A DNA stretch of 44,706 nucleotides from Alphaproteobacteria bacterium. Lineage in GTDB: Bacteria > Pseudomonadota > Alphaproteobacteria > Micavibrionales > Micavibrionaceae. Location: the NCBI GenBank assembly GCA_024275825.1, contig JAJRYK010000011.1:1-44706 (forward strand), read 5' to 3'. The notes under the pieces were generated by a model. It was not told the DNA's origin. It worked only from the letters and a program-made list of their open reading frames with translations, and made no database searches. Of this stretch, positions 35,712-44,706 are shown one piece after another. Made by a program: the position numbers and the translations under genes. Every line of letters starts with the position of its first letter. Within the stretch, counting starts at the first letter, position 1.

Positions 35712-35762
35712 AGGGATCAGCGTTAATTGAAATGAAGGGTCAGGTCAAGGATTGGAATTTGA

Positions 35763-35968
35763 ACCACGAAGGGCACTAAGCGTTCCGTGAACGTCATCCC
35801 GCCTGCGAGGCCGTAGCCTCTTCGGCGCGGCGAAGGCCCGACAGAGCCCCCGCCTTCGCGGGGGCAGGCTGCGCGACGAGGGACCTTTCCCAGTTGAGGT
35901 TTTCTCAGGATTCCTTATATACGCTTGAAATGACACTTTACCACCAAACGCTTAGTGTTCTTCGTGGT
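35763..35968. repeat. Nested repeat: CCACGAAG-type arms around a GTCAT...ATGAC unit
   Basis: An outer arm (35763-35782, starting ACCACGAAGGGCAC) is matched in inverted orientation at 35949-35968, with 18 of 20 positions identical. Between them lies a unit from GTCAT (35793) to ATGAC (35934), holding a perfect 8-bp hairpin GCCCCCGC/GCGGGGGC (35846-35853 with 35858-35865, loop CTTC). The whole is 206 bases, fills the dnaB-alr spacer and ends 7 bases before the dnaB stop codon. Confidence 0.8.
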
Positions 35969-35975
35969 AAAAAAC

Positions 35976-37475
35976 CTATTCCTGCAACGACGAATGATAC
36001 GGATCCAGATCACTAAATCTGGTCAAATTCGGATTAAAGTGCATCTTAATCCCGCCAATCGGGCCGTGACGCGCTTTAGCAACGATGCACTCGCCAATAT
36101 TATGCGCACGCTCCATGCTGGACTGCCATTCCATATGCTTTTCCGTGCCCGGCTCCGGTTCAGTCCGCGAGAGGTAATATTCCTCGCGGTAAACAAACAT
36201 CACCACATCCGCATCTTGCTCAATCGAGCCCGATTCCCGCAAATCAGAGAGCTGCGGACGCTTATCCTCGCGCTGCTCCACGGCGCGGCTGAGCTGCGAG
36301 AGCGCCAACACCGGGATTTGCAGCTCTTTCGCAATCGCCTTAAGCCCGCGCGTAATTTCCGCAACCTCTTGCACACGGTTATCCATACCCTGCTTCGAGC
36401 CCGTTCCGCGCAAAAGCTGCAGATAATCCACGATCAACAGCTCCAGCCCATGCTGGCGCTTTAGCCGCCGTGCCCGCGTGCGCACCGCGCTGATCGACAG
36501 CGCCGGTTGGTCATCAATAAACAGCGGCACTTGACTGAGCACCTGCGAGGCTTCAACAAATTTCCGGAAATCATCTTGCTTGATCTCGCCCTTACGGATC
36601 GAATCACCAGAAATGCCCGACTGATCAGACAAAATCCGCGTGGCCAGCTGATCCGCCGCCATTTCGAGTGAGAAAAACCCGACCCGCGCGCCTTCCGCGC
36701 CGCCAGTTTCCGCATATTTCTTCGCCGCATTAAACCCAATATTCACCGCCAGCGCGGTCTTGCCCATCGATGGTCGTCCGGCCAAGATCAGCAAATCTGA
36801 ATTCTGCAACCCGCCCAGCTTTTTATCCATATCGGTCAGGCCCGTCGTCACGCCCGTGACATTCCCATCCGTCTTAAACGCCTTTTCCGCCAGCTCAATC
36901 GCCGTCACAACTGAGTCGCGCAGCGTCGTAAACTTACCCTTCACCTCACCGGTTTCACCCAGCTCATACAGCCGTGCCTCAGCCTTTTCAATAGTGTCTT
37001 GTGCGGTGGCTTCTAATGTGTGACTAAAGGATTCATTGACAATTTCCTCGCCCGTGCCAATCAGCTCGCGGCGCATATGCAAATCATAGACCGTACGCGC
37101 ATAGTCCTCGACATTCACCACGCTGATCACACTAGCGGCCAGATCAACCAAATATTCTGCGCCGCCAACCTCGGCTAAATCTTCATCTTGTTCGAAATAA
37201 TTCTTGAGCGTCACTGGCGAAGCATTTTGCCCGCGATCCACCATCTTCGCGATCGCCTCAAAAATCCGCCCATGCGCCAGCATAAAGAAATGCTCCGCAC
37301 GCACATAATCACCAATCTTCTCAAACGAGCGATTATTAACCAGCAACGCGCCAAGCAACCCCTGCTCTGCCTCAATATTATGTGGCAAAATGCGGTAGAT
37401 CGGTTTTTCATCCCCGCCCCCTTTAAGCCCGGGCGTTTCCGCCGCAGGGTTCTCTAAAACAATATCTTGTACCAT
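35976..37475 (-). CDS. dnaB: Replicative DNA helicase DnaB
   Basis: This protein of about 499 residues is the hexameric helicase that unwinds DNA at the replication fork. The N-terminal primase-interacting domain begins YRILPHNIEAEQGLLGALLV. The RecA-type motor has Walker A LAGRPSMGKTALAVN, Walker B LLIVDYLQLL and later motifs including SQLSRAVEQREDKRPQLSDL, RESGSIEQDADVVMFVYRE and GPIGGIKMHF. No intein is present. ATG 37475 and ATG 37487 are both possible because neither has a clear ribosome binding site. It lies 166 bases after rplI, past a terminator, in the conserved rpsF-rpsR-rplI-dnaB order. Confidence 0.97.
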   Translation of the reverse strand: MVQDIVLENPAAETPGLKGGGDEKPIYRILPHNIEAEQGLLGALLVNNRSFEKIGDYVRAEHFFMLAHGRIFEAIAKMVDRGQNASPVTLKNYFEQDEDLAEVGGAEYLVDLAASVISVVNVEDYARTVYDLHMRRELIGTGEEIVNESFSHTLEATAQDTIEKAEARLYELGETGEVKGKFTTLRDSVVTAIELAEKAFKTDGNVTGVTTGLTDMDKKLGGLQNSDLLILAGRPSMGKTALAVNIGFNAAKKYAETGGAEGARVGFFSLEMAADQLATRILSDQSGISGDSIRKGEIKQDDFRKFVEASQVLSQVPLFIDDQPALSISAVRTRARRLKRQHGLELLIVDYLQLLRGTGSKQGMDNRVQEVAEITRGLKAIAKELQIPVLALSQLSRAVEQREDKRPQLSDLRESGSIEQDADVVMFVYREEYYLSRTEPEPGTEKHMEWQSSMERAHNIGECIVAKARHGPIGGIKMHFNPNLTRFSDLDPYHSSLQE

Positions 37476-39347: not shown

Positions 39348-39476
39348 GTCACCCCCGCGGCTCAGCAAAGCTGAGCTTAAAACGGCGGGGGTCCACAATG
39401 TCAGCGTGCATAAGCACGCTGTCTTTACCCCGGATACCCGCACTTTAAGCGTGCTCATGCACGCGGCGGGTATGAC
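39348..39476. repeat. Three-hairpin GTCAC...ATGAC repeat upstream of rpsF
   Basis: Outer stem 1 is ACCCCCGC/GCGGGGGT (39351-39358 with 39385-39392), enclosing GCTCAGC/GCTGAGC (39360-39366 with 39370-39376). A linker TCCACAATGTC leads to stem 2, AGCGTGC/GCACGCT (39403-39409 with 39414-39420). Stem 3 is ATACCCGC/GCGGGTAT (39434-39441 with 39466-39473), enclosing GCGTGC/GCACGC (39449-39454 with 39459-39464). The unit has the same plan and linker as the one at 43098-43235, but different stem sequences. The rest of the rpsF-to-39585 spacer holds only the promoter region and a terminator. Confidence 0.85.
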
Positions 39477-39548
39477 GACAAGGGAAATAGTGTAAAACAA
39501 AGAAAAAACCGGGCAATCTCTTGCGCCGGCCTGCTATATCTCCTCGCT

Positions 39549-39576
39549 AAAACACCCCACTTCAAAGGGGTGTTTT
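39549..39576 (-). terminator. Strong bidirectional hairpin terminator
   Basis: AAAACACCCC (39549-39558) pairs perfectly with GGGGTGTTTT (39567-39576) around an 8-base loop. It lies 8 bases past the stop of the 39585-39935 gene. The plus strand has a further T tract (39579-39584), so it can serve either strand. Confidence 0.85.
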
Positions 39577-39584
39577 CGTTTTTG

Positions 39585-39935
39585 TTAGCCAGTCGCTTCC
39601 TTTTTTGCCGGTTCTGAAAATGTATCAGCAGCAACATATTCCCCGCGACCTTGTAAAATCGGCTTTGCATTAGATGTGCGCGCAATATAATGCGCCATAA
39701 ACGTAGCCCAGCAACATTCCGGGTCCACATGCTTGTGCTTGGCTGTGCCCGAACGCAACATATTCGTCAAATCATGGCCAGTCAGCTCAGGCTTGCGCAG
39801 CGCCTGTTTGAATGCCGGCAAAGACATGGTTGCGAATTCCGCATAATCACTGTTGATACTGCCCCGACAATGCGCAAACGCATCATTGGTTTCCTCGATC
39901 AACATTTTTATGCGATGATGTATAGATAATGCCAT
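39585..39935 (-). CDS. Hypothetical protein, 116 aa
   Basis: I do not recognise this protein. It is soluble and helical, with a central stretch LPAFKQALRKPELTGHDLTN and a His/Cys-containing segment KHKHVDPECCWATFMAHYI (about residues 66-84) that could bind metal. It ends in a low-complexity charged tail. The gene stands alone: a clear terminator follows it and about 340 bases of AT-rich sequence precede it. A GGGAGATTTGAAAAT tract precedes ATG 39935, with GGGAG at a good distance. Confidence 0.65.
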   Translation of the reverse strand: MALSIHHRIKMLIEETNDAFAHCRGSINSDYAEFATMSLPAFKQALRKPELTGHDLTNMLRSGTAKHKHVDPECCWATFMAHYIARTSNAKPILQGRGEYVAADTFSEPAKKEATG

Positions 39936-40278
39936 ATTTTCAAATCTCCCTTCAAAATAAATTTAAAACCGATCCCTGTTAAGATCGTAAAGCTTTTATA
40001 TTTAAATAGTCACACACGCCGGATAATCCAGCTTTGGCCTTCTTATAGAGGCTTTATTTTTATAAAAAATGTAATCATTTGAGTAATTTTTTTAAATTAC
40101 CCATTTAGATTTAGTTAAAACTTTGTTAAGTGATCATACAATCGTACAAAAAGGGGGAGAATGCAAGATATTTTACAACCCCCAATGGTGCAATGCGAAA
40201 TAAAAACACGATTAGACGTATGATTATTAAAATTATATTTCACTAATATAAACGTTAAAACAAGGTATTGGAACAAAA
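39936..40278. other. AT-rich spacer upstream of fabD with a CtrA-type box
   Basis: No gene is visible in these 343 bases. The spacer holds a 7-bp hairpin GTAATTT/AAATTAC with a TTT loop (40083-40099). It also holds an exact TTAA-N7-TTAA at 40115-40129, the consensus for the alphaproteobacterial regulator CtrA. About one such match is expected by chance per window of this size, and the AT-rich context raises that, so the site is only suggestive. Divergent promoters for fabD and the 39585-39935 gene must lie here. Confidence 0.5.
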
Positions 40279-41232
40279 ATGAGCATGGCATTCGTCTTTC
40301 CAGGACAGGGGTCCCAGCATGTGGGTATGGGTAAGGATTTAGCGGATTCCCACCCCGAAGCGCGTGATGTTTTCGATGAAATTGACGAATCGCTGGGGCA
40401 AAATTTAAGTAAAATCATGTTTGAAGGCTCCGAAGGTGACCTTAACATGACCGAAAACACCCAGCCCGCCTTGATGGCCGTCTCTATGGCGGTGATAAAA
40501 ATTCTGGAAAAGTGCCATGGTATTCATATTAAAGACCAGTGCGGCTTCATCGCCGGGCACAGCCTGGGCGAGTATTCTGCTTTAACCGCCGCTGGCGCGT
40601 TTAGCATCTCCGACTGCGCAAAACTGCTTAAACTACGCGGCCAAGCGATGCAGCGCGCTGTGCCCGTTCGTGTTGGCTCCATGGCCGCCATTCTTGGCCT
40701 TGATTTCAATGATGTAAAAACCATCACCAATCATGCCGCGGCGCAAACAAGCGAAATTTGCCAAACTGCCAATGATAACTCCACCGGCCAAGTTGTGGTC
40801 AGCGGTCATAAATCCGCCGTTGAGGCCGCCGTAGCGCTCGCCAGCGAACAGGGCGCAAAGCGCGCTGTAATGCTGCCCGTCAGCGCGCCCTTCCACTGCG
40901 CCCTGATGCAGCCCGCCGCCGATGAAATGGCCGAGGCGCTGGCCGAAGCGACAATCAACGCGCCCGTCGTGCCCATTGTCTCCAACGTCACAGCCACAGC
41001 CACCAGCAGCCCCGATGAAATCCGTACATTGTTGGTTGACCAAATCACCGGCATGGTGCGCTGGCGCGAATCCGTGCTGTGGATGCGCGATCAGGGCATT
41101 AACCAAATGATAGAAATCGGCGCAGGGAAAGTCTTGTGCGGCCTTGCAAGACGCATCGACCGCGACATTGCTTGCATGAACGCCAGCACGCCAGAGGAAA
41201 TAGAAGCGCTGGCAGAAACGTTAAAACGTTAA
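40279..41232 (+). CDS. fabD: Malonyl-CoA-ACP transacylase
   Basis: This 317-residue enzyme transfers malonyl groups from CoA to acyl carrier protein at the entry to fatty-acid synthesis. The N-terminus MSMAFVFPGQGSQHVGMG is typical. The nucleophilic Ser 95 lies in AGHSLGEYSALTAAGA, the carboxylate-binding Arg in LRGQAMQRAVP, and the catalytic His in VSAPFHCALMQPA. Length is normal. It opens the fab cluster; a 35-bp inverted-repeat structure lies between it and fabG. Confidence 0.97.
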   Translation: MSMAFVFPGQGSQHVGMGKDLADSHPEARDVFDEIDESLGQNLSKIMFEGSEGDLNMTENTQPALMAVSMAVIKILEKCHGIHIKDQCGFIAGHSLGEYSALTAAGAFSISDCAKLLKLRGQAMQRAVPVRVGSMAAILGLDFNDVKTITNHAAAQTSEICQTANDNSTGQVVVSGHKSAVEAAVALASEQGAKRAVMLPVSAPFHCALMQPAADEMAEALAEATINAPVVPIVSNVTATATSSPDEIRTLLVDQITGMVRWRESVLWMRDQGINQMIEIGAGKVLCGLARRIDRDIACMNASTPEEIEALAETLKR

Positions 41233-41236
41233 AAAA

Positions 41237-41404
41237 AACCGCAGATGGACGCAGATAAGCGTGGATTTATTTTTTGGAAAATGTCATTCCGAGCGAAGCC
41301 GAGGAATCTGACCCGGGTATTGCTGGGTTAAATCTCTCCTCGCTACGCTCGTTCGAGATGACGACAAAGAATAAATCCACGCTTATCTGCGTCCATCTGC
41401 GGTT
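41237..41404. repeat. 35-bp perfect inverted arms around a GTCAT...ATGAC unit, fabD/fabG spacer
   Basis: Positions 41237-41271 and 41370-41404 are exact reverse complements over 35 bases (the left arm starts AACCGCAGATGGACGCAGAT). The 98-base interior contains a unit from GTCAT (41283) to ATGAC (41362), with GAGCGAAGCCGAGGAATCT on one side and a partly matching CGCTACGCTCG on the other. The structure begins 5 bases after the fabD stop. As RNA the arms would form a very stable stem inside the fab transcript. The arms are related to the single arm at 26042-26075. Confidence 0.9.
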
Positions 41405-41501
41405 AAAAAATCACAATCCCAAAATCACATGACAACTTCGTTTTACTTTGTCTAACTTTGCGGTTAAAAATTAAAAAACTAAAATTTAAGGAAGAAAACA
41501 C

Positions 41502-42239
41502 ATGTTCGATCTATCAGGAAAAACAGCCCTCATCACCGGCGCAACAGGCGGGATTGGCGGGGCGATTGCCACTGCTCTCCACGCACAAGGGGCAACGGTC
41601 GGCATCTCTGGCCGGAACGAAGACAAACTCGCGGCGCTGGCCAAAACGCTCGGCGATCGCGTTCATGTCCTGCCCGCAGATTTATCAAGCACCGATGCAA
41701 TCACCGACCTTGTAAAACGCGCCGATGAAGCCATGGGGCAAATCGATATTCTGGTGAACAATGCCGGCCTGACCCGCGATGGCCTGTCCATGCGGATGAG
41801 CGATGAGGACTGGCAGCACGTCATTGATGTGAATATGAGCGCAACGTTCAAGCTCGCCAAGGCCGTGCAGCGCGGCATGATGAAGCGCCGCAATGGCCGC
41901 ATCATCAATATCGCCAGCATCGTCGGCGTAACCGGTAATCCAGGGCAATGCAACTATGTCGCCAGCAAGGCCGGCATGATCGGCTGGTCCAAAGCCATGG
42001 CGCAAGAGATCGCCAGCCGCGGCATCACCATTAACTGCATCGCGCCGGGCTTCATCGCCACCGCCATGACCGAGGCCTTAACGGATGATCAAAAAGCCAA
42101 AATCAACGCCACCATCCCCGCTGGTAAAATGGGCAGTGCGAGCGACATAGCCGCCGCCGCCACATACCTAGCCAGCAATGAGGCCAGCTACGTTACCGGA
42201 CAGACAATGCATGTGAATGGCGGGATGGCGATGATTTAG
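41502..42239 (+). CDS. fabG: 3-oxoacyl-ACP reductase
   Basis: This 245-residue short-chain dehydrogenase reduces 3-oxoacyl-ACP with NADPH. The cofactor loop is ITGATGGIGGAIATALHAQG and the NNAG motif is VNNAGLTRDG. The catalytic Ser lies in IINIASIVGVTGN, and Tyr and Lys lie in CNYVASKAGMIGWSKA. The C-terminus, YVTGQTMHVNGGMAMI, is the family end. AAGGAAG precedes the ATG. It sits between fabD and an ACP-like ORF. Confidence 0.96.
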   Translation: MFDLSGKTALITGATGGIGGAIATALHAQGATVGISGRNEDKLAALAKTLGDRVHVLPADLSSTDAITDLVKRADEAMGQIDILVNNAGLTRDGLSMRMSDEDWQHVIDVNMSATFKLAKAVQRGMMKRRNGRIINIASIVGVTGNPGQCNYVASKAGMIGWSKAMAQEIASRGITINCIAPGFIATAMTEALTDDQKAKINATIPAGKMGSASDIAAAATYLASNEASYVTGQTMHVNGGMAMI

Positions 42240-42245
42240 GCTTTT

Positions 42246-42320
42246 GTCATTTCGCTCCCGCGAAATATACAAAACCTTATGTCGTAGCTAAGCGCAGCGA
42301 AGGCGCAGACCTCGATATAT
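42246..42320. repeat. Partial palindromic repeat after fabG
   Basis: A GTCAT start (42246-42250) leads into the perfect hairpin ATTTCGC/GCGAAAT (42249-42255 with 42260-42266). A degenerate GCGCAGCGAAGGCGC stretch follows near 42292. No clear ATGAC end is seen, so this looks like a decayed unit of the same broad class. The rest of the fabG-42425 spacer is AT-rich. Confidence 0.45.
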
Positions 42321-42424
42321 CGGCTCACAAACCCATATAACCCTAAGCACCTAATAATTTAATTGACAGAACTTCAATTGTTTATTATTTATCCATAACC
42401 TAAAAAACTATAAGGATAAAAATT

Positions 42425-42736
42425 ATGAATACAGAAAACACCACAGCGTTCAGCGAACTGGAAAATCAAGTTTTAGCCGTTGTCGCTGGAAATTTTGACG
42501 TGGCACTATCAAAACTATCGCTAACTACAGACCTCCATAATATAGAATGGAACCTTAACAGTCTCAGGTGCTATACTTTACTCGGATCTCTAGAGCGCGT
42601 GTTTGAAGTGCACTGCAGAAACGTTGAAGATGGATCTATCACAAAAATGTTTACAGACATGAATCAGCCTTGCACAATTGAGATGATGGTTGAAATGGTT
42701 AAAAATAAACGCCAAGAGGTGATACCCGCTTTCTAA
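42425..42736 (+). CDS. Divergent acyl-carrier-protein-like protein
   Basis: This 103-residue protein aligns by eye with ACP over its whole length. Helix 1 is ELENQVLAVVAGNFDVALSK, and the loop is LSLTTDLHNIEWNLNSL. Helix 2 is SLERVFEVHC, and the final helix is CTIEMMVEMVKNKRQ. The phosphopantetheine serine position (Ser 46) is present, but the motif is NSL instead of DSL. It is separated from the true acpP (42846) by only 109 bases and lies inside the fab cluster. GGATA precedes the ATG. It could be a specialised carrier, an apo-ACP mimic that binds FabF or AcpS, or a decaying duplicate. Composition is more AT-rich than fabG. The ACP relationship is an inference from pattern and context. Confidence 0.65.
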   Translation: MNTENTTAFSELENQVLAVVAGNFDVALSKLSLTTDLHNIEWNLNSLRCYTLLGSLERVFEVHCRNVEDGSITKMFTDMNQPCTIEMMVEMVKNKRQEVIPAF

Positions 42737-42845
42737 GTTATGTCAAGTGAATAAAATCATTTGCAATTATAAACGATGCTGGTAAAGTCCGGCGCAATGA
42801 ATTAAAAAGTAATATCGAGATAAACAAGACAAAGGATATCAAACA

Positions 42846-43085
42846 ATGAGTGATGTAGCCGAGCGCGTTAAAAAGATCGTGGTAGAGCATTTGGGTGTTG
42901 AAGCAGACAAGGTTGTTGAGGGCGCGAGCTTTATTGATGATCTGGGCGCTGACTCCCTTGATACGGTTGAGCTGGTCATGGCGTTTGAAGAGGAATTCAG
43001 CGTTGAAATCCCTGATGATGCGGCGGAAAACATCCAGACTGTTGCGGATGCTGTGAATTTCATCAAAGAAAATGCGGCTGAGTAA
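42846..43085 (+). CDS. acpP: Acyl carrier protein
   Basis: This 79-residue acidic carrier holds growing acyl chains on 4'-phosphopantetheine. The attachment motif is [20 protein letters not shown], with Ser 37. The ends, [20 protein letters not shown] and [17 protein letters not shown], are typical. AcpS at 8024-8425 would modify it. It is followed by a three-hairpin repeat and then fabF. Confidence 0.98.
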
Positions 43086-43097
43086 CACTTTATTACC

Positions 43098-43235
43098 GTC
43101 ATCCCGTTGGTGAATTTGAGCGAAGCGAAAATGAACTTAAACAAACGGGATCCACAATGTCAGCCCGCCCTGCGGGCTGTCTTCTTTCTGGGTCCCCGCT
43201 GTTTTAGCGTTTCTACGAAACGCCGCGGGGATGAC
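43098..43235. repeat. Three-hairpin GTCAT...ATGAC repeat in the acpP/fabF spacer
   Basis: Stem 1 is ATCCCGTT/AACGGGAT (43101-43108 with 43144-43151). The linker TCCACAATGT leads to stem 2, CAGCCCGC/GCGGGCTG (43161-43168 with 43172-43179). Stem 3 is TCCCCGC/GCGGGGA (43193-43199 with 43225-43231), enclosing GCGTTTC/GAAACGC (43207-43213 with 43217-43223). The unit ends ATGAC at 43235, 20 bases before the fabF start codon. Plan and linker match the unit at 39348-39476, whereas the stems differ with pairing kept. Confidence 0.88.
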
Positions 43236-43254: not shown

Positions 43255-44526
43255 ATGAGACGAGTCGTTATCACAGGCATGGGCATGGTTTCCCCGCTCG
43301 GTATGGGCGTGGAGCATAATTGGAACGCCATCACCGCCGGAAAAAGCGGCATTCGCAAGATTGAGCATTTCGATGTCTCTGACATATCTTCTCAAATCGC
43401 AGGCATTGTCCCGCGCTCTGACAGCGATGCGCCAACCGATGGCGGCTTTAACGCTGATCTTTATGTTGCGCCAAAAGAACAGCGCAAGATCGATGATTTC
43501 ACCATATTTGCCCTGGCCGCCGCTGGGGAAGCCATCACCGATAGCGGCTATACCGCCGATACGGACGAAGCCAAAAACCGCACTGGCGTTATGATTGGCT
43601 CCGGCATTGGCGGGCTTGGCACAATGGATAATACCTCTCGCATTTTGGCGGAGCGCGGGCCGCGCCGCATTTCACCCTTTGCCAATCCAGCGATGCTGAT
43701 CAATCTGGCCTCCGGACATGTCTCGATTAAATACGGCTTTCGCGGCCCGAACCATTCTGTGGTCACGGCCTGCGCATCGGGCACGCACGCCATTGGTGAT
43801 GCAGCGCGCCTGATCGCCTTTGATGATGCCGATATCATGATCGCAGGCGGCGCAGAGGCCGCCGTAAACCGCATCGGCGTGGCCAGCTTCGCCGCTGTGC
43901 GCGCGCTGTCCACCGATTATAATGACAACCCTACAGCAGCCTCCCGCCCGTTTGATACTGGCCGTGATGGCTTTGTCATTGCAGAGGGCGCGGGCATTGT
44001 CGTGCTGGAAGAATACGAGCACGCAAAGAAACGCGGCGCAAAGATTTATGGCGAGATTATCGGCTATGGCCTGTCGGGCGATGCGCACCACATTACCTCC
44101 CCCGCCGCTGATGGTAATGGTGGTTACCGCGCGATGGAGGCCGCGCTTAAACGCGCTCAAATCAACCCCGATGCGATCAGCTACATCAACGCCCACGGCA
44201 CATCCACCCCCGTTGGGGACGGCATTGAATGCACAGCCGTAAAGCGCCTGTTCGGTAGCGCAATCGAGGATGTTTCCATGTCCTCCACCAAATCCGCAAT
44301 TGGTCATTCGCTGGGCGCAACCGGCGCGATGGAGGCGATTTATACAGCCAAAACCATAGAAACCGGCATCATCCCGCCCACATTAAATCTAGAAAATATA
44401 GATGAAGCCTGCGCCGGCATTGATCTGGTGCCAAAGACAGCCAAAGAGAAAAAAGTCACATGCGCCCTAACCAACTCCTTCGGCTTCGGCGGCACAAATG
44501 CGAGCCTGGTTATTCGGGCGGTTTAG
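43255..44526 (+). CDS. fabF: 3-oxoacyl-ACP synthase II
   Basis: This 423-residue condensing enzyme extends acyl-ACP with malonyl-ACP. It begins MRRVVITGMGMVSPLGMGVE. The active-site Cys lies in VTACASGTHAIGDAARLIA, the first His in INAHGTSTPVGDGIE, and the Lys/His block is TKSAIGHSLGATGAMEAI. The C-terminus NSFGFGGTNASLVIRAV is typical. ATG 43255 is preferred over an in-frame ATG at 43231 because the protein family starts there, the repeat unit covers 43231, and AGAGGA lies upstream. It is the last gene before the right-hand IS copy. Confidence 0.97.
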   Translation: MRRVVITGMGMVSPLGMGVEHNWNAITAGKSGIRKIEHFDVSDISSQIAGIVPRSDSDAPTDGGFNADLYVAPKEQRKIDDFTIFALAAAGEAITDSGYTADTDEAKNRTGVMIGSGIGGLGTMDNTSRILAERGPRRISPFANPAMLINLASGHVSIKYGFRGPNHSVVTACASGTHAIGDAARLIAFDDADIMIAGGAEAAVNRIGVASFAAVRALSTDYNDNPTAASRPFDTGRDGFVIAEGAGIVVLEEYEHAKKRGAKIYGEIIGYGLSGDAHHITSPAADGNGGYRAMEAALKRAQINPDAISYINAHGTSTPVGDGIECTAVKRLFGSAIEDVSMSSTKSAIGHSLGATGAMEAIYTAKTIETGIIPPTLNLENIDEACAGIDLVPKTAKEKKVTCALTNSFGFGGTNASLVIRAV

Positions 44527-44571
44527 AGGTTTAACAATTGCTGCTTTATGTTCTCACATTTTTCATCAATA

Positions 44572-44706
44572 TATAGTTATTCCAATTAATAATTGCACAT
44601 AAATAAATCGTCCAATGGCGTGCCAAGCGGTAAAAATTGCCGTCGCCTTTTTAGGCTACCAAAGCTTTGTTCTATGGGGTTAAAGTCCGGGCTGTAAGGT
44701 GGCAAA
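44572..44706 (-). mobile_element. IS630-like element, right-end fragment (right window edge)
   Basis: This is an inverted copy of the sequence at 1-152, identical over the transposase part and with one visible difference near the end (GGAATAACTATA here, GCAATAACTATA on the left). The boundary is at TA 44572-44573. It lies 46 bases after the fabF stop. Confidence 0.8.
44586..44706 (-). CDS. IS630-family transposase, C-terminal fragment
   Basis: The minus-strand frame enters from the right edge and stops with TAA at 44588-44586, giving about 40 residues. It contains PPYSPDFNPIEQSFGSLKRR with the catalytic glutamate of the DDE domain. The visible protein is identical to the fragment at 1-138. 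The remainder is outside the window. Confidence 0.85.
   Translation of the reverse strand, partial: LPPYSPDFNPIEQSFGSLKRRRQFLPLGTPLDDLFMCNY

Follow-up and report, generated by a model that had tools for sequence, protein, structure and literature searches.

Two spacers on a contig of an alphaproteobacterium of the family Micavibrionaceae (GenBank assembly GCA_024275825.1, contig JAJRYK010000011.1) each contain a unit of three hairpins whose stems differ in sequence between the units and yet pair in both. Element 1 lies beside rpsF, and element 2 lies between acpP and fabF; the stretch analysed, hereafter the window, is 44,706 nucleotides (nt) long. A preliminary description of the two units read the compensatory change as selection for folded RNA or single-stranded DNA (ssDNA). 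The question raised by this locus is whether such units act as RNA, are recognised as DNA, or are held paired by replication. The window units almost certainly belong to a dispersed family of CGTC-type repeats. On balance, we lean towards reading each unit as a non-autonomous, dispersed repetitive extragenic palindrome (REP) of the CGTC type, which would be recognised as ssDNA and whose stems would be maintained with the aid of template switching.

A recurrent head-to-head repeat with covarying stems

Both units lie where they had been placed and carry the GTCAY...ATGAC ends; their lengths, described as shared, are similar but unequal (129 and 138 nt). A full copy consists of two head-to-head modules flanking a central hairpin, TGTCAGC...GCTGTCTTT. 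Each module runs in the order YGTCAY tag, outer stem, GG, inner hairpin, TTAAACN-type bulge, outer stem, and RTCC. The central hairpin TGTCAGC...GCTGTCTT is present in both window units, and GCTGTCTT follows the second stem in both, as had been noted. The outer stems, reported as perfect, are fully paired except for a G-T end pair in element 2. Inner hairpins are enclosed by stems 1 and 3, but that of stem 1 in element 2 is imperfect, with 8 of 12 pairs formed (read from the sequence). The element ends are inverted (GTCAY/RTGAC); miniature inverted-repeat transposable elements (MITEs) combine terminal inverted repeats with a target-site duplication.

When folded as ssDNA, all four strands (two units, both strands) formed three hairpins and folded better than all 200 dinucleotide shuffles (z from -4.3 to -8.0). 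When folded as RNA, three of the four strands were better than all shuffles, and on the fourth, one shuffle was equally good. The RNA minimum-energy fold was the plain three-hairpin form in one strand; longer-range pairing appeared in the other three.

A covariance model was trained on 17 modules, and a match was accepted at E <= 0.01. The 1.92-Mb genome that contains the window yielded 38 module matches, and at least one match was found in 16 of 35 genomes, this genome included. The 35 matches listed fall into 24 places, so at least 24 places in this genome carry the repeat. Both modules were matched at 13 of the 23 places examined (the match at C13:112320 was left out), and one module with a decayed or missing partner was present at the rest. 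A loose pattern gave 16 matches, compared with four for a reversed control, and 12 of the 16 were the same module with other stems. Across the genomes, there were 84 dimers with both modules matched, and a hairpin was found within 80 of their spacers. Most distinct modules (194/212) were 43-58 nt long. The copies are related, so module counts are not counts of independent events.

Among relatives, the repeat is patchily distributed. At least one match was present in 15 of the 34 relatives searched, with counts from 0 in G001, the sole genome of the same genus, to 57 in G021. Three genomes (G002, G003, and G038) gave a single weak match each, and in the genus of G010, four genomes carried 14-28 matches each at E <= 1e-6. 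This spread looks like amplification in some lineages. An exact core pattern occurred in 35 stretches of a species-level genome collection, 33 of them from records titled Alphaproteobacteria or Micavibrio; the remaining two (Pseudohongiella and Oscillospiraceae records) gave no module match. The linker common to the window units, TCCACAATGTCAGC, was confirmed, with three exact occurrences in the genome and none for the reversed-pattern control. The fold is common among relatives, but the exact linker was found in none of the 57 relatives searched for it and is therefore not a family signature.

Stem covariation was clear. For 37 distinct modules of the genome, in an alignment fitted to the model, 93.5% of 536 cells were paired, and 91 cells were changed on both sides compared with 21.2 in shuffles; when the partner column was shifted by one to three positions, only 4-22 double-changed cells remained. 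Because this alignment had been fitted to the model, covariation was recounted on a MAFFT alignment of 17 modules, which was not fitted to structure: 96.0% of cells were paired, with 35 double changes compared with 8.1 in shuffles. The unpaired tag, the TTAAAC bulge, and the tail were conserved across modules with differing stems. Compensatory change around fixed unpaired parts is thus real, as the preliminary description held, but paired change alone is no proof of RNA selection in palindromic repeats; selection on the fold is not required, and template switching is a possible source.

Syntenic sites were compared using three locus pairs with sequence aligned on both sides of the element (L231/L233, L229/L250, and L285/L227). 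For L231/L233, the left flank could be aligned over only about 60-75 nt and the right flank over about 1.4 kb. In the four stems of this pair, six base pairs had become a different Watson-Crick pair, one had become G-T with both sides changed, one carried a one-sided change, and 22 were the same at both sites; the third stem's inner hairpin was excluded, its length differing (six and five pairs). The tag, the bulge, and most of the linker were retained. For L229/L250, the element was 91.3% identical as the reverse complement (116/127) compared with 68.8% in the same direction (66/96), and the flanks were 74-75% identical in the same direction: the entire element is inverted in place. In the inverted orientation, one pair had become a different Watson-Crick pair and 35 were unchanged. 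In L285/L227, the spacer was reversed relative to both modules. The element was shared only in part at L240/L280 and L203/L242, no usable shared element was found for L207/L041 and L256/L283, and a same-genus comparison was impossible with G001 lacking a module match. The locus sets contained 10 of 13 places of G010 as longer loci, with C5:124840, C1:483787, and C1:214555 outside them; L237 was excluded, its place being covered by L272.

Loop polarity in the modules and flipping in the centre

The apical loop of the inner hairpin was read on the GTCA strand in 134 modules; by the rule used, an inner hairpin was lacking in the other 78 of the 212 distinct modules, which were left out of loop counts. 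The loop was G..A in 81 modules, T..C in one, and other in 52. Counted per distinct inner stem (n = 85), the numbers were 48, 1, and 36, and in broader classes, 104 compared with 10, with 20 other. An earlier, stricter module finder, superseded by the covariance-model set, had given 61, 0, and 50 (n = 111). The simple CGTC hairpins in the sampled loci (n = 51) behaved likewise, as the reverse complements of their commoner loops were never observed. The two modules of a dimer are oppositely oriented; the polarity is therefore a property of the tag strand rather than of the transcript, since a single transcript would carry one loop of each polarity.

The central hairpin was oriented by its T-tract: in 63 of 80 spacers, the 6 nt next to the stem included 4-5 T on the following side, the orientation being chosen by that T count. 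The loop was AAA in 21 spacers and TTT in 22; in broad classes, the balance was 33 to 28, with three spacers that could not be oriented excluded. Six central stems carried both loop classes, compared with one module stem carrying both broad classes, and one spacer pair was identical except for AAA/TTT. Flipping thus differed between centre and modules (33:28 vs 104:10, Fisher p 4e-8; over distinct stems, 14:18 vs 63:9, p 7e-6), although the rows in both comparisons are not independent. The balance of central loops is the footprint of template switching. The contrast is most simply read as a mutational process by which every stem stays paired, combined with a constraint on the strand of the module loop.

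A G-poor leader precedes the tag. Positions -2 to -12 of each tag contained 5-8% G compared with 21-25% beyond -17 (211 flanks), and the leader was weaker at the simple CGTC hairpins.

Competing accounts of the paired stems

ssDNA recognition is, in our judgement, slightly the better-favoured driver of the family. An enzyme would read the module as folded ssDNA of the tag strand, contacting the unpaired YGTCA tag, the GG junction, the GN(N)A loop, the TTAAAC-N bulge, and the TCC tail, and the stems would need only to pair, their sequence being free. Many of the paired changes may be supplied by template switching during replication, in which one hairpin arm would template the other. The same process would turn the central loop round and could also invert longer stretches of the element without moving them.

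Several points weigh against this account. Template switching could keep the stems paired even if nothing read them, and the position behind genes would also suit an RNA role in 3' untranslated regions (UTRs). The main alternative to a constraint on module polarity is common descent, as the copies are related and the counts not independent. The centre is not flip-neutral for every loop (ATA 9, TAT 1). At L229/L250, an outer pair was changed on both sides into a non-pair (A-C), and in-place inversion rests on this single syntenic pair. Transposition was not observed, with no target duplication or empty site in evidence. The Pfam family Y1_Tnp was not found in 6 of the 10 module-bearing genomes searched; G010, which carries 25 modules, is among the six, and completeness is only 77% and 84% for two of them.

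Gene conversion, in which the module at a site is overwritten by a different copy from the same genome, is compatible with ssDNA recognition, and we consider a contribution from it unlikely, if less so than the other alternatives. Its inner stem was common to another sampled module of the same genome in 52 of 134 modules (16/33 in the genome of the window). The inner stem GCGTTTC occurs in L003, L011, L012, L019, L053, and the window copy, and the altered stem that G010 has at the L233 site is found again at L236 in that genome. In 82 of the 134 modules, however, the inner stem was unshared among the sampled copies of the genome, although copies were only partly sampled, and the reversed central spacer of L285/L227 is unexplained by conversion alone.

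A cis-acting RNA, whose hairpins would stabilise transcript 3' ends or act as attenuators or processing sites and whose stems would be selected on RNA, is improbable in our view. The context of the repeat was examined in 92 loci of the genome of the window and the genus of G010, with open reading frames (ORFs) called mechanically; nine loci lay inside an ORF and two could not be classified. The remaining 81 comprised 47 unidirectional, 27 convergent, and 7 divergent gaps (74/81 unidirectional or convergent), and 66 of 101 distances to the 3' end of the flanking ORF were 4-38 nt. This location behind gene ends suits an RNA function, as do the strong folding of the units as RNA and the terminator-like, T-rich sequence behind most central stems. 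Di Nocera et al. (2013; PMC3733652), in the part of the text available to us, favour transcription of REPs, citing their position and G-T pairs. The T-tract of the central hairpin, however, was sense in 13 and antisense in 12 unidirectional gaps, and on this balance an oriented terminator or attenuator of the upstream gene was rejected. In the presumed transcript of 78 modules in unidirectional gaps, there were 11 G-U and 11 A-C mispairs, without the wobble tolerance expected for RNA. On the module strand, the counts were 13 G-T and 19 A-C in the genome of the window; when the outer stems were counted in the 201 distinct modules with a length of 36 nt or more, they were 27 and 22. DNA is favoured over RNA because there is no G-U excess and no orientation preference, and because loop polarity is tied to the GTCA strand and does not follow the transcript. 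The two possibilities left side by side by the preliminary description are therefore partly distinguishable, and wobble, orientation, and loop polarity lean to DNA.

The role suggested at acpP-fabF was not supported, as the element was absent from this gap in all 23 other genomes displayed (24 of 30 FabF loci were displayed, own included; 29 other genomes had a FabF match). Many relatives carry some other hairpin between acpP and fabF, which fits an RNA role. In G006, G007, and G014 (L120, L119, and L127), this is a lone CAGCC...GGCTGTCT hairpin, central-like and without flanking modules (by eye), possibly a common terminator type of the clade or the source of the spacer. In an Rfam search, only a tRNA in the window reached the gathering score, and the units matched no curated family. 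For both window copies, a dedicated RNA-regulatory role towards rpsF or fabF is unlikely.

The equal frequency of AAA and TTT central loops, the six central stems with both loop classes, and the inversion of a whole element at a syntenic site would all be expected of old palindromes kept paired by replication template switching (quasipalindrome correction) alone, neutral or slightly harmful and with no reader. Such switching is described as homogenising hairpin arms and inverting the spacer in the accessible parts of PMC8794818 and PMC8604942, and the multi-base paired changes and spacer inversion of the central hairpin resemble it. In contrast, the module loops hardly flip despite a similar stem length and hold a polarity that template switching alone does not predict. 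The unpaired tag, bulge, and tail are conserved among modules with differing stems, and the range from 0 to 57 matches among relatives suggests recent spread. We therefore give little credence to template switching in the absence of a reader.

Insertion into palindromic targets, which is reported of some REPs, was unsupported: flank complementarity over 82 dimers was not above that of shuffled pairs (6.11 vs 5.93, p 0.11; by subset, genome of the window n = 13, p 0.013; mixed n = 18, p 0.04; genus of G010 n = 51, p 0.94). Apart from this, L110 in G021 has a perfect 12-nt complementary pair, CACACCAACAAC and GTTGTTGGTGTG, on its flanks; in the same genome, AATAAGACA and TGTCTTATT bracket both L105 and L109, and the left half is also present at L089.

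Window features and relation to known repeats

The coordinates of the two elements and their neighbours are listed in Table 1. The rpsF gene flanking element 1 was identified by Pfam Ribosomal_S6. The inner stem of module B in element 2 recurs in other copies of the repeat.

Table 1. Parts of the two three-hairpin elements and adjacent genes in the window.
Feature	Position	Strand	Remarks
Element 1, three-hairpin unit: head-to-head module pair and central hairpin	39348..39476	+	129 nt; flanked by an uncharacterised ORF and by rpsF
Element 1, module A: tag GTCA, outer stem, inner hairpin, TTAAAAC bulge, RTCC tail	39348..39394	+	covariance model 61.8 bits; in training set
Element 1, central hairpin CAGCGTGC-ATAA-GCACGCTG, then TCTTTA	39402..39421	+	
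Element 1, module B, inverted	39432..39476	-	covariance model 51.8 bits; in training set
acpP, acyl carrier protein	42846..43085	+	Pfam PP-binding; stop codon 12 nt ahead of element 2
Element 2, three-hairpin unit	43098..43235	+	138 nt; between acpP and fabF
Element 2, module A: outer stem ATCCCGTT/AACGGGAT, long imperfect inner hairpin	43098..43153	+	covariance model 34.7 bits; outside training set
Element 2, central hairpin CAGCCCGC-CCT-GCGGGCTG, then TCTTCTTTC	43161..43179	+	
Element 2, module B, inverted; inner stem GCGTTTC/GAAACGC	43190..43235	-	covariance model 67.6 bits; in training set
fabF, beta-ketoacyl-ACP synthase	43255..44526	+	Pfam ketoacyl-synt; start 19 nt past element 2

Other repeats occur in the window. 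A 40-nt inverted repeat of the CCGCAGATGGACGCAGATAAGCG type (41237-41404, 98% complementary) in the fabD-fabG gap encloses a simple GTCATTCC...GAGATGAC element at 41283-41362, that is, one palindromic repeat nested within another. An imperfect 42-nt inverted repeat at 35748-35983 (76% complementary) contains a GAACCACGAAGGGCACTAAGCG-type sequence. By eye, the end of the window (about 44562-44706) matches the beginning of contig 33 (L021 1-150) in reverse complement, and we take this shared sequence to resemble the end of an IS630-type transposase. The contig break is probably a repeat, since on contig 33 the shared sequence is followed by a partial match to a Y1 transposase. This match (model 45-121, near the contig start) is the only Y1_Tnp (PF01797) match in the genome and is presumably of the IS200 type. 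Y1_Tnp was found in 4 of the 10 module-bearing genomes searched, and on this distribution a REP-associated tyrosine transposase (RAYT) or other Y1 transposase was rejected as the general mobiliser.

According to the part of Di Nocera et al. (2013; PMC3733652) that was available, CGTC REPs have an unpaired CGTC/TGTC end, 8-9 bp stems starting with A-T, and short CCA tails. They form head-to-head dimers with structured spacers and occur mainly in Alphaproteobacteria, CGTC-1 in Micavibrio aeruginosavorus among them; they apparently have no dedicated transposase, and their mode of action is left open. Our repeats resemble them in these respects. The base preceding GTC was C in 73% and T in 27% of 211 flanks, with GTC outside the stem in DNA folds. 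The outer stem has eight pairs, the first being A-T in 32 of 37 modules, and is followed by CC in 13 of the 17 training modules and by CT in four (one row was one base short). In the published repeats and in ours, the distribution is alphaproteobacterial, unidirectional and convergent gaps near 3' ends are preferred, and no transposase gene is associated. The loops of the CGTC families are 4-5 nt long, with few named exceptions, in that same source, whereas the loop of our modules contains an inner hairpin, whose apex is often GN(N)A, and a conserved TTAAAC-type bulge. The modules therefore constitute a two-storey variant within the CGTC-tagged REP superfamily, outside CGTC-1 to CGTC-4. Alongside them, the genome of the window has simple CGTC-type hairpins that lack the inner one, GTCATTGCACGATTTATTCGTGCAATCCA among them (L015, L016, L018, and L061).

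No description of a two-storey CGTC variant was found in the portions of the open-access literature available to us. The long loop of the module recalls the GTAG-3 and GTAG-14 REPs in the accessible text of PMC3733652, in which no mention was found of loop polarity, of a leader poor in G, of central loops that flip, or of elements inverted in place. A further likeness is to REP doublets forming hairpins (REPINs) or bacterial interspersed mosaic elements (BIMEs) with their RAYTs, in having two inverted REPs with a spacer, and long-hairpin REPs with a bulge. As far as the consulted part of PMC8266576 goes, TnpA-REP binds folded ssDNA strand-specifically, reading the tag, bulge, and loop of GTAG REPs. 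The tag here is GTCA(Y), not GTAG, GTRG, or GTGG. Membership of the RAYT system fails on both tag and enzyme, although a similar way of working is plausible.

What is ordinary about these units is that they are CGTC-type repeats; what is unusual is the two-storey architecture of the module, the contrast between module and central loops, the leader poor in G, and inversion in place. The family also provides built-in controls, namely two modules of opposite strand, an inner hairpin of constant loop polarity, and a central hairpin in which the commonest loops are found either way round, which together separate strand-level constraint from mutational pairing. We put forward, as a doubtful but specific proposal, that an ssDNA enzyme other than a Y1 transposase may recognise the two-storey hairpin by its one-strand tag, bulge, and GN(N)A apex, copy the element into G-poor tracts behind genes, and be able to turn it round in place. 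If this were true, such an enzyme would be the mobiliser still missing for the CGTC REP superfamily.

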